Shown here in pieces: positions 12,859 through 43,660 of a stretch of DNA of 64,000 bases. Within the stretch, counting starts at the first letter, position 1; every line of letters starts with the position of its first letter. The position numbers were made by a program, and so were the translations under genes. Source of the DNA: Dictyobacter arantiisoli (GTDB taxonomy: Bacteria; Chloroflexota; Ktedonobacteria; Ktedonobacterales; Ktedonobacteraceae); assembly GCF_008326305.1 (NCBI RefSeq), contig NZ_BIXY01000003.1, positions 62,001-126,000 on the forward strand, given 5' to 3'. The notes beneath the pieces were generated by a model. That model made no database searches. It was not told the DNA's origin and saw only the letters and a list, made by a program, of their open reading frames with translations.

Positions 12859-12957
12859 TATGAGCCATTCCAGATTTTTGGAGAACCTGTAAAACACCTC
12901 AAGTAGGTAAATTGAGGATTATGTCCGGTAAAGTTCTTGGAAATAGAGTAGTCTAAA

Positions 12958-13008
12958 TTTTATATGATGCATAGTATGCTTTTCAAGCATACTATGCATC
13001 ATATAAAA
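12958..13008. terminator. 24-bp perfect palindrome between convergent genes
   Basis: The arms at 12958-12981 and 12985-13008 are perfectly complementary with a 3-nt loop (TTC). The palindrome starts two bases past the catalase stop. With T-rich ends on both strands it probably acts as a bidirectional terminator for the catalase and the MmyB-type regulator. The stem is unusually long for that job. Confidence 0.75.
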
Positions 13009-13009
13009 A

Positions 13010-14500
13010 CTATTTGACTTCTTCAACCTGTAGAGAGATGGCTAAGCCAAGGCCCTGGGCGATGCGGGTACCCAGATCGGGATCGACCTGATACCACAAT
13101 TTGATGGCACGTTCTTGAATGAATTTCTCAACGCCCTGACTCATATGGTTCACGATGTTGTTTACCAGATGATCACGGTCTTCCGGCGAGAGAACGTGGC
13201 GGTATAGCGTGCCAGCCTGCCCAAAATCATCATCCTCAGCGTGCAAGGTATAGGCGCTGCGTACTAACGCGCCGTCAGTTTCCCAACCGGGCTCGATAAT
13301 GTTGGGATTGGCCTGTGGTCCGCTATAGCTATTGGGCGCATACACTGGCTGGTTGCCGTTATGGCGATAGCGCATGGAACCATCTTTGTTATAGCTATGC
13401 ACTTCACTCTTCGGCTGGTTGACCGGGACCTGCAGATAGTTGGTGCCAATGCGATAGCGATGCGCATCTGGATAGCTGAACAGGCGCCCGAGCAGCATCT
13501 TATCAGGACTGGGACCGATGCCGGGAACCATGTTGGATGGCTCGAACGAAGCCTGTTCAATCTCGGCAAAGAAGTTCTCTGGATTGCGATCCAGTACCAG
13601 ACGACCGACCGTGATGGCTGGATAATCGCTATGCGGCCAGACTTTGGTCAGATCAAATGGATTAAAGCGATAGTTGGCGGCATCGGCGAAGGGCATGATC
13701 TGCATGTCCAGACGCCAGGCCGGGAAGTCTCCTTTGTCAATGGCCTCACGAAGATCGCGGCGATGGAAATCGGGATCTTCAGCCGTCATGGCTTTGGCCT
13801 CGGCATCCGTAAAGTTCTCGATACCCTGCTCGGTCTTAAAGTGATACTTGACCCAGAATTTCTCGCTCTGCGCATTGATCCACATAAAGGTATGGCTTCC
13901 AAAGCCGTCCATATGGCGATAGGTACGTGGGGTGCCACGATCAGTCATCAAGAATGTCACCTGATGGATCGTCTCCGGGGACAAAGACCAGAAATCCCAT
14001 TGCGCATTGCTGCTGCGCATATCGTCTCCAGGCATGCGCTTCTGCGAATGGATGAAGTCCGAGAATTTCGATGGATCTCGTACGAAGAAAATAGGGGTGT
14101 TATTACCAACCAGATCGTAGTTGCCTTCTTCGGTATAAAATTTGATGGCAAAGCCGCGTGGATCACGGACGGTATCCGCAGAACCCTGCTCACCAGCTAC
14201 TGTTGAGAAGCGCAAGAGAACCGGCGTACGCTTGCCAACAGTATTAAGAAAGGCAGCGCTGGTATATTTGGTTACATCGGCGGTAACTTCAAAATAGCCG
14301 AAAGCGCCACTACCCTTGGCATGTACCACTCGCTCAGGCACACGCTCGCGGTTAAACTGCGCCATCTTTTGAATCACATAATGATCTTGCAGTAACAAAG
14401 GGCCGTTGGGGCCAACCGAGAGTGAATGCTCATCACTGGTGGCTGGAATGCCCGCATCTGTCGTTGTTACTGGTGGTTTTTTTTCGAATTGGTCGCTCAT
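13010..14500 (-). CDS. katA: Monofunctional heme catalase (small-subunit type)
   Basis: This enzyme breaks down hydrogen peroxide to water and oxygen in the cytoplasm. At 496 aa it fits small-subunit catalases. The catalytic histidine lies in RVVHAKGSGAFGYF, the distal asparagine in VGNNTP, and the proximal heme tyrosine in RLFSYPDAHRYRIG. The RFSTVAGEQGSADT segment is strongly conserved. It starts at ATG 14500 and is a single-gene unit with a palindrome right after its stop. The 548-bp upstream region presumably holds its promoter; no PerR/OxyR box was recognised. Confidence 0.96.
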   Translation of the reverse strand: MSDQFEKKPPVTTTDAGIPATSDEHSLSVGPNGPLLLQDHYVIQKMAQFNRERVPERVVHAKGSGAFGYFEVTADVTKYTSAAFLNTVGKRTPVLLRFSTVAGEQGSADTVRDPRGFAIKFYTEEGNYDLVGNNTPIFFVRDPSKFSDFIHSQKRMPGDDMRSSNAQWDFWSLSPETIHQVTFLMTDRGTPRTYRHMDGFGSHTFMWINAQSEKFWVKYHFKTEQGIENFTDAEAKAMTAEDPDFHRRDLREAIDKGDFPAWRLDMQIMPFADAANYRFNPFDLTKVWPHSDYPAITVGRLVLDRNPENFFAEIEQASFEPSNMVPGIGPSPDKMLLGRLFSYPDAHRYRIGTNYLQVPVNQPKSEVHSYNKDGSMRYRHNGNQPVYAPNSYSGPQANPNIIEPGWETDGALVRSAYTLHAEDDDFGQAGTLYRHVLSPEDRDHLVNNIVNHMSQGVEKFIQERAIKLWYQVDPDLGTRIAQGLGLAISLQVEEVK

Positions 14501-15048: not shown

Positions 15049-15897
15049 GTGAAGTTTGCCGGTCGCCTGTTTCCACTCGTGCTGATCATCTTATTACTGT
15101 TACTGGCAGCTTGCGGTGAAAGTAGTCCCACCGCCACATCATCAACTACGACAACGCCATCAACATCATCTTCTTCAGCCGTATCTCTGAACGTGTTTGC
15201 GGCGTCCTCGTTAACCGAGTCATTTAATGCCATTAAAACCGCCTATCATACTTCCCATCCTGATGTATCGATAACGTATAATTTTAATGGTTCGCAGGCT
15301 TTGGAGCAGCAAATTGCTAATGGTGCTGAGGCCGATGTATTTGCATCTGCCGACCAGATAAACATGCAAAAAGCGATTGATGCTGGCGTGGTCACGCAGA
15401 GTCAAAATTTTGCGCGCAACAAGCTGGTTGTTATCATTCCCAATAGTAATCCCGGTCATATCACTTCTTTAAAGGATCTGGCGAAAGCTGGAACGAAAAT
15501 CGTCCTGGGTGCTCCTGCGGTTCCAGTGGGCAAATATAGCTTGCAGGTACTGGATAAGCTGGGTAAATCTTCTGCCTATGGAGTGGCGTATGAGAAGAGT
15601 GTCAGGGCAAATATCGTCTCACAAGAGGAAAATGTCAAAGCAGTCGTTCAGAAGGTACAATTAGGAGAGGCCGATGCAGGCATTGTCTATCTTACTGATG
15701 TGACGAGTGCAGCATCCACAAAGGTTGAAACATTGACGATTCCCGATCAGGATAATGTCATTGCCCAGTATCCTGTCGCTGTGACGAAGAACAGTGCCCA
15801 TGCGCAGACTGCTCATGCATTCATTACTTATCTCCTCTCGGCGGATGGGCAGGCGATCCTGACCAAATATCATTTTATTGCTATAAATAGCATTTGA
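15049..15897 (+). CDS. modA: Molybdate ABC transporter substrate-binding lipoprotein
   Basis: ModA captures molybdate or tungstate outside the cell and delivers it to the ModB permease. The protein begins with a short basic region, a hydrophobic core and a lipobox LAAC near residue 20, so it should be membrane-anchored as a lipoprotein. A Ser/Thr-rich linker follows. The ModA family motif VFAASSLTESFNAI and the later PVGKYSLQVLDKLG segment are clear. I chose the GTG at 15049 because GAGGAGG lies just upstream; the frame is open further up without a ribosome-binding site. modB follows after 530 bp of palindromic repeats. Confidence 0.93.
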   Translation: MKFAGRLFPLVLIILLLLLAACGESSPTATSSTTTTPSTSSSSAVSLNVFAASSLTESFNAIKTAYHTSHPDVSITYNFNGSQALEQQIANGAEADVFASADQINMQKAIDAGVVTQSQNFARNKLVVIIPNSNPGHITSLKDLAKAGTKIVLGAPAVPVGKYSLQVLDKLGKSSAYGVAYEKSVRANIVSQEENVKAVVQKVQLGEADAGIVYLTDVTSAASTKVETLTIPDQDNVIAQYPVAVTKNSAHAQTAHAFITYLLSADGQAILTKYHFIAINSI

Positions 15898-15968
15898 GAG
15901 CGTGCCAAAATCCCATCGTTTCCATGATCTTCGCGCATGAATTTTCGCACCAATGGTGCTCAAACATA

Positions 15969-16027
15969 TTTTTAGTATGTATTGTAGAAAAAGTTCTACG
16001 AACTTTTTCTACAATACATACTAAAAA
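15969..16027. repeat. Long palindrome, copy 1
   Basis: A perfect 28-bp stem (15969-15996 with 16000-16027) has a 3-nt TAC loop. The outer end is TTTTTAGTATGT on the left and its complement on the right. Relative to copy 3 it differs at three stem positions, and each change is matched on the other arm. Confidence 0.95.
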
Positions 16028-16128
16028 GGGCGCAGGCGCGCAAGCGCCTGCCAGCAGGTGAGCAGTAAGATCCCGTGCTCTCCACGATCTCTGTGCATGA
16101 GTTTTCGCACCTGCGGTGCTCAAACAGA

Positions 16129-16189
16129 TTTTTAGTGGTGTGATGTAGAAAAGGTTCGAAGAACCTTTTCTACATCACACCACTAAAAA
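16129..16189. repeat. Long palindrome, copy 2
   Basis: A perfect 29-bp stem (16129-16157 with 16161-16189) has a GAA loop. Compared with copy 3 it has one extra base pair and one substitution (GGTG for ATG), both mirrored on the opposite arm. Confidence 0.95.
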
Positions 16190-16202
16190 GGGCGCAGGAG
16201 TG

Positions 16203-16245
16203 CATGGGAATCAAACACTTTGTCACAAAGTGTTTGATTCCCATG
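16203..16245. repeat. 21-bp palindrome with 1-nt centre
   Basis: The arms 16203-16223 and 16225-16245 are perfect complements. A single arm of it recurs at 16400-16420, ten bases before the modB start, so the element has been duplicated or the second copy truncated. Confidence 0.92.
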
Positions 16246-16296
16246 GTCTTCGCCATCCTGGCGCATGAGTTTTCGCACCAATGGTGCTCAAACAGA

Positions 16297-16355
16297 TTTT
16301 TAGTATGTGATGTAGAAAAGGTTCGAAGAACCTTTTCTACATCACATACTAAAAA
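16297..16355. repeat. Long palindrome, copy 3
   Basis: A perfect 28-bp stem (16297-16324 with 16328-16355) has a GAA loop. Its inner half is identical to copy 2 and its outer half to copy 1. Confidence 0.95.
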
Positions 16356-16430
16356 GGGCGCAGGCGCGCATGCGCCTGCCAGCAGGTATCCCGATGGTGA
16401 TGGGAATCAAACACTTTGTGAGTGGAATGT

Positions 16431-17267
16431 ATGCAGAATACACAACAAATACAGAAGAGCGGCATGCCAGGTATGCTGCTCACAGAAAAAATCATCTGGC
16501 TGGGAGTAGCATTGCTCGCCAGCTTTTTTTTCCTCTTCCTGGGTATCCCTCTCGTCTCTTTATTTTTTCGCGAACAGCCCTCCGTGATCTGGAATGAGTT
16601 ATTGCAGCCAGATATCTTTCAGTCCTTGCAGTTAAGCGTGGTCACAACAACCATCAGCACGCTCCTGACGATCCTTTTTGGTTTACCCGTGGCGTATCTG
16701 CTGGTACGCACCCGCTTTCGGGGTCAAGCTGTATTGGAAACGCTGGTCACGCTGCCCACGGTTCTGCCGCCAGTGGTTGCGGGGGTGGCATTGCTGTTGA
16801 GCTTTGGACGGATGGGGTTGATAGGTCACTATCTGGATCTGGTGGGGATTACCATTCCTTTTACGACTGTGGCTGTGGTGATGGCGCAGATTTTTATCGC
16901 AGCTCCGTTTTTTATCAATAGTACCAAAGCCGGACTTGAGCAGTTGGATCGGCGCTATGAACTGGCGGCTTATACCTTGCGGGCCTCGCCGTTCTATACT
17001 TTCTGGCATGTCGTTCTGCCATTGATCCGGCCAGCTTTGCTTTCGGGTATCGGTTTGAGCTGGGCCCGTGCATTGGGCGAATTTGGTGCCACGATTACTT
17101 TTGCAGGCAATTTTCCCGGTACCACTCAGACGATGCCCATTGCCGTCTATATTGCCTCCGAATCGGATCTGGATAAATCAATCGCGCTGGCAGTCGTCTT
17201 GCTGGCTGTTTCCTTCGGTCTATTGCTTACCCTGCGTTTAAGCCAGCGCTATTATCTCAATAGGTAG
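16431..17267 (+). CDS. modB: Molybdate ABC transporter permease
   Basis: ModB is the membrane channel of the molybdate importer. At about 278 aa it has five or more hydrophobic spans. It also carries the permease signature near residue 215 (ELGEFGATITFAGN in slightly shorter form ALGEFGATITF), followed by NFPGTTQTMPIAVY, which is diagnostic of ModB. The start may be ATG 16431 (GAGTGGA upstream) or the in-frame GTG at 16422. The start abuts a half palindrome, so the leader appears to have been reshaped by the repeat array. No ATPase gene (modC) follows within this window. Confidence 0.92.
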   Translation: MQNTQQIQKSGMPGMLLTEKIIWLGVALLASFFFLFLGIPLVSLFFREQPSVIWNELLQPDIFQSLQLSVVTTTISTLLTILFGLPVAYLLVRTRFRGQAVLETLVTLPTVLPPVVAGVALLLSFGRMGLIGHYLDLVGITIPFTTVAVVMAQIFIAAPFFINSTKAGLEQLDRRYELAAYTLRASPFYTFWHVVLPLIRPALLSGIGLSWARALGEFGATITFAGNFPGTTQTMPIAVYIASESDLDKSIALAVVLLAVSFGLLLTLRLSQRYYLNR

Positions 17268-43609: not shown

Positions 43610-43660
43610 AGCACCAGCCTGCGACTCTCATCTTCATAATGAGGGTCGCAGGCTGGTGCT
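43610..43660. terminator. 22-bp hairpin between convergent genes
   Basis: The arms 43610-43631 and 43639-43660 pair over 22 bp with one G-T wobble and a 7-nt loop. It lies between the acetyltransferase and the convergent penicillin-binding protein. There is no long T run, so terminator function is inferred from position. Repeat-like GC-rich sequence follows to about 43765. Confidence 0.55.

Follow-up and report, generated by a model that had tools for sequence, protein, structure and literature searches.

A high-copy mobile element in Dictyobacter arantiisoli with long palindromes whose arms change in step, very probably through template switching

The window analyzed here, a stretch of 64,000 nucleotides (C3:62001-126000) of the 7.2 Mb draft genome of Dictyobacter arantiisoli, assembled in 256 contigs, carries between the molybdate transport genes modA and modB an array of three hairpin modules that follow one another at a spacing of 160-168 bp (Table 1). 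The initial annotation had described perfect stems of 28, 29 and 28 bp with 3-nt loops, which an inverted-repeat search confirmed, and had stated that the stems differ from each other only by changes matched on the opposite arm, which holds for modules 1-3 without exception. The smaller hairpins that it placed on the flanks of every stem are only partly as described: the 5′ one (GCACC-NNN-GGTGC) accompanies all three modules, whereas the 3′ one (GCAGGCGC-NNNN-GCGCCTGC) is present in modules 1 and 3 and has been lost by deletion from module 2. Modules 1 and 2 are truncated copies joined at their ends and module 3 is complete, the mismatch between its flanking triplets probably being the result of recombination between tandem copies. 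Since mononucleotide-shuffled contigs yielded zero palindromes with arms of at least 18 bp, those of the array are not a product of chance.

Table 1. Features of the modA-modB region (positions within the window)
Feature	Position	Strand	Evidence
modA, molybdate-binding protein, left neighbor	15049..15897	+	TIGR01256, 157 bits, above cut-off
Inserted array, three element copies	15907..16421	+	Sequence; gap comparison with two congeners
Module 1, 5′ small hairpin GCACC-AAT-GGTGC	15947..15959	+	Sequence; family-wide
Module 1, core palindrome, 28 bp, loop TAC	15969..16027	+	Arms 15969-15996/16000-16027
Module 1, 3′ small hairpin; terminator-like with the T5 that follows on the minus strand	16032..16051	+	Sequence
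Module 2, 5′ small hairpin GCACC-TGC-GGTGC	16107..16119	+	Sequence
Module 2, core palindrome, 29 bp, loop GAA	16129..16189	+	Arms 16129-16157/16161-16189
Module 2, right terminal inverted repeat; 3′ hairpin lost by deletion	16204..16222	+	Sequence
43-nt palindrome formed by abutting TIRs of modules 2 and 3	16203..16245	+	Inverted-repeat search
Module 3, left flanking triplet TCA, target-duplication position	16223..16225	+	
Module 3, complete 193-bp element, TIR to TIR	16226..16418	+	
Module 3, 5′ small hairpin GCACC-AAT-GGTGC	16275..16287	+	Sequence
Module 3, core palindrome, 28 bp, loop GAA	16297..16355	+	Arms 16297-16324/16328-16355
Module 3, 3′ small hairpin; resembles a terminator on the minus strand	16360..16379	+	Sequence
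Module 3, right flanking triplet TGA, mismatching left TCA	16419..16421	+	
modB, molybdate ABC permease, right neighbor	16431..17267	+	TIGR02141, 219 bits, above cut-off

The modules are all copies of one non-autonomous mobile element (MITE), full copies of which can be aligned over approximately 190-200 bp. A BLAST search with the element returned 84 matches, with copies dispersed in the source genome, which was read over 2.06 Mb (29%) with home-made gene calls and with similarity searches that score limited numbers of candidates. The terminal inverted repeats (TIRs; consensus [CG]A(A/G)(A/T)GTGT...) occur as related variants, which are mixed inside elements, and their pattern was found at about 190 places, against 0 for a control pattern, with inward-facing pairs mostly 180-220 bp apart. 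An exact 3-bp target duplication borders 48 of 65 full copies (TTA 13, TGA 9, TAA 8, TCA 6, TAT 4, AAA 3, ATA 2, TTT 2, TTG 1), while the triplets flanking the other 17 do not match and other offsets gave few matches. Extrapolation from 1.2 Mb of contigs chosen by size gives about 310 core hairpins and about 173 full copies per genome, the core palindrome measuring 26-39 bp, mostly 26-32 bp, with a loop mostly of 3 nt. Copies stand at contig ends of the source assembly (G000; C1:8, C7:136, C96:28400-28760 and C38:60789), and the repeat is therefore a probable cause of the breaks in the draft. Four loci (L004, L016, L022, L027) have another MITE-like repeat, CTCGACTTTGTACA...TGTACAAAGTCGAG, next to copies of the family. 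Outside the detected copies, 65 further palindromes (arms of at least 18 bp, at most one mismatch) were counted in the 2.06 Mb, 22 of them in convergent gaps; two long palindromes of the window, at 12950-13010 and 43610-43660, both lie between convergent genes according to our gene calls.

Transposition with a 3-bp TNA-type target duplication is characteristic of some IS5-family groups, namely of the IS1031/ISL2 type, with which the element agrees in 36 of its 48 duplications and disagrees in the 12 that are not TNA, and the loci of PF01609 and PF13340 transposases carry no element TIR pair. Within the same 29% of the genome no transposase gene flanked by the element's TIRs was found, and a search for an autonomous insertion sequence, with TIR pairs 600-3500 bp apart, produced a single unconvincing pair. 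Bacterial MITEs, which are non-autonomous derivatives of insertion sequences (reviewed in PMC10969869), are likewise short, non-coding, intergenic elements of high copy number with TIRs and 3-bp target duplications; to this plan the present element adds a long perfect internal palindrome with a small hairpin on either side, an arrangement shared by two genera, and no autonomous partner was found. REP and BIME sequences (PMC3733652) share with it the high-copy intergenic palindromes, often clustered, and the alternative complementary stem residues, but REP stems are 5-13 bp long, bear a GTAG or CGTC tag and often contain G-T pairs, the GTAG type being tied to RAYT transposases, whereas the stems described here are long and untagged, have few G-T pairs and lie in elements with TIRs and target duplications. 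A REP/RAYT origin was ruled out by the stem length, by the absence of a GTAG/CGTC tag at the stem base and by the transposase evidence; the genome's one Y1 transposase gene (PF01797) sits at a locus with neither TIR nor 5′ hairpin motif. Literature searches on Ktedonobacteria turned up no account of this repeat.

The array is a species-specific insertion, because in two congeners the gap between modA and modB measures only 23 bp (G001) and 21 bp (G002; loci L191 and L194), and its absence there led us to reject a conserved role in the regulation of modAB. The initial annotation had reasoned that many genomic copies with covarying stems would point to a repeat or RNA family, and these were indeed found by the genome search and by a covariance model, which makes it a repeat family; the annotation had missed the MITE nature, visible in the TIRs and 3-bp target duplications, as well as the species-specific character of the insertion between modA and modB. 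At E ≤ 0.01 the model matched at least 150 copies in the source genome, 143 in G003, at least 150 in G004, 77 in G001 and 5 in G002. In the wider family, at E ≤ 1e-6, it matched one other genus (g8), probably Ktedonobacter, with 59-68 copies in three genomes and 1 in a fourth, and zero in 11 other genera. The layout of small 5′ hairpin, long perfect palindrome and small 3′ hairpin is found in Ktedonobacter too, the 5′ hairpin reading TTTTCGCGCC-TGC-GGCGCTC and the core being again a near-perfect palindrome, but of other sequence. Three Ktedonobacter genomes also carry, at orthologous sites, paired core hairpins that are oppositely oriented and lie some 2.1 kb from each other (L226, L242/L245, L243/L246).

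Most of the 123 core hairpins of the source genome are perfect or nearly so, including those of copies that miss most of the element, and 99.2% of the core cells in the family alignment are paired. Comparison of each stem with its closest relative among the 86 hairpins with a 3-nt loop gave 148 mirrored and 12 one-sided changes, a count that is restricted to 3-nt loops and long arms and therefore favors well-paired copies; in all 75 full copies, taken without selection, the core showed 79 mirrored and 42 one-sided changes. The TIRs of these same 75 copies, about 165 bp apart, showed 9 mirrored against 283 one-sided changes, so that the mirroring goes with a short spacer. The small hairpins are uninformative on this point, being so short and so conserved. 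Over the whole structure, changes on both sides numbered 304, compared with 75 after shuffling. Neither strand is favored, because G-T and A-C mismatches in the cores are equally frequent (17 each) and the main loops are about as common as their reverse complements (TTC 23 and GAA 21, ATA 8 and TAT 7), although certain rarer loops occur in one orientation only (ACA 6, TGT 0).

The same behavior was followed in place at orthologous loci of Ktedonobacter, where matches from G020, G023 and G041 gave 18 pairings with flanks mostly 91-98% identical. The 14 non-redundant pairs analyzed (flank divergence 3.8%, 397 stem pairs), a set biased toward better-scoring hairpins and drawn from about 30 of about 70 loci in each of two genomes and 10 in the third, contained 29 mirrored changes, 17 one-sided changes and 2 other double changes, when only 0.19 mirrored changes would be expected if the arms evolved independently. 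Six of the 14 orthologous loops are exact reverse complements, one is identical and seven differ otherwise, and insertions or deletions, too, are mirrored at some loci. Mismatches were of the G-T style in 10 cases and of the A-C style in 7. Turnover of the stems equals or exceeds that of the flanks, and the core sequence is thus not strongly constrained, while the 5′ small hairpin diverges less than the flanks (1.7% vs. 3.8%, p = 0.04) and the 3′ side more (9.6%).

We consider it highly probable that a MITE, combined with homogenization of its arms by template switching, explains the mirrored stems. In this process a DDE-type transposase acting in trans would insert the element with a 3-bp target duplication, and copies would land in intergenic DNA, at times beside or inside one another, giving rise to arrays such as that between modA and modB. 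During replication, the nascent strand would switch onto the complementary arm, by which a mutation in one arm would be either erased or copied to the other, the arms would change in step, and the loop would sometimes become inverted. The mirrored changes, the loop inversions and the control with distant TIRs together fit DNA copying and not compensatory selection on RNA, and the initial suggestion of palindrome correction by template switching is strongly supported by the changes and inversions seen in place at orthologous loci. Template switching between short inverted repeats has been reported to homogenize arms and invert spacers, including TTC to GAA and the reverse in yeast (PMC8604942), and PMC8794818 treats the difficulty of distinguishing it from compensatory substitution. 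Quasipalindrome correction as described in these works shares with our case the homogenization of arms, the inversion of short spacers and the TTC/GAA flips, but here it would operate on hundreds of dispersed copies of a mobile element, with arms of 26-39 bp that remain matched while the stem turns over. We infer template switching rather than cruciform-based exchange, and the palindrome itself would not need to be selected, with purifying selection upon it a possible addition to correction. We make no claim that loss of SbcCD explains the tolerance of such palindromes, given that Mre11-like proteins are present and the SbcC cut-off was passed in just 1 of 14 control genomes; no protein of five Dictyobacter genomes passes the SbcD cut-off. 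Two Mre11-like phosphoesterases of about 440 aa were observed (L213:448-1773, L217:1405-2718).

It is possible, if rather unlikely, that the host keeps the palindromes as terminators or insulators between transcription units and that template switching merely helps to keep them perfect. Convergent gaps hold more copies than expected (27 of 103 vs. 14%, p = 0.001) and divergent ones fewer (p = 0.003), but the same bias would result from a mobile element purged from promoters. The initial annotation held that the stems are not ordinary intrinsic terminators; this needs correction for the minus strand, where in modules 1 and 3 only the GC-rich 3′ hairpin is followed by the T5 of the stem base and resembles a terminator. 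The genes of the window run along the plus strand, on which the array has no strong site of this kind. Ktedonobacter retains its copies at orthologous sites, as this reading would have it, yet its cores lack the T5, and their turnover is no slower than that of the flanks. A further reading that we regard as unlikely is that 5′ hairpin, long palindrome and 3′ hairpin make up an old functional unit, such as an insulator acting in both directions or a landmark of replication or transcription. Template switching would keep this unit perfect, and in Dictyobacter it would have turned into a transposon by gaining TIRs. A host role of the element is possible, but unproven.

Very little weight falls on the proposal that the arms change jointly because gene conversion or recombination replaces entire stems with those of other family copies. 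The source genome does contain many similar copies, and the fused ends of modules 1 and 2 and the mixed TIR variants suggest that exchange between copies probably does occur. Such exchange would, however, swap an entire stem and leave the loop inversions unexplained, and the median difference between stems at different loci of one Ktedonobacter genome is 8 of 24 positions (about 30 of about 70 loci sampled per genome), whereas orthologues are often separated by one or two mirrored pairs in scattered positions, which are therefore unlikely to have come from another copy.

We hold it to be highly improbable that the modules represent a structured RNA or a processed transcript in which the mirrored changes are compensatory substitutions under selection. 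The covariation is strong, the predicted fold of module 3 is very stable (z = -13.3) and the sequence of the 5′ small hairpin is conserved across the genus. Against this, no Rfam family reached its gathering score (within the window, only tRNAs did), and stems stay perfect even in the degenerate copies mentioned above; at a permissive E-value the matches below gathering were mostly microRNA precursors, as expected of any long perfect hairpin, and were discarded. Selection for structure, the other explanation offered in the initial annotation, finds no support, given the absence of an excess of G-U-style over A-C-style mismatches, the near parity of the main loops with their reverse complements, whereas rRNA loops are strongly one-directional (PMC8794818), and the scarcity of one-sided intermediates among close pairs. 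Nor is the strand fixed relative to genes (34:23, p = 0.18). An assembly artefact, as might be suspected in a 256-contig draft with several copies at contig ends, can practically be dismissed, since the same layout and mirrored evolution recur in assemblies of 2 to 10 contigs (G003, G004, G020, G023, G041).

Mirrored changes in stems are usually taken as evidence of a functional RNA, and here the same pattern would stem from a DNA process, of which the loop inversions are a second fingerprint, in a family with hundreds of copies and with orthologues in close species. The finding calls for caution in RNA discovery based on covariation, and the family may serve as a natural assay of the frequency of template switching.
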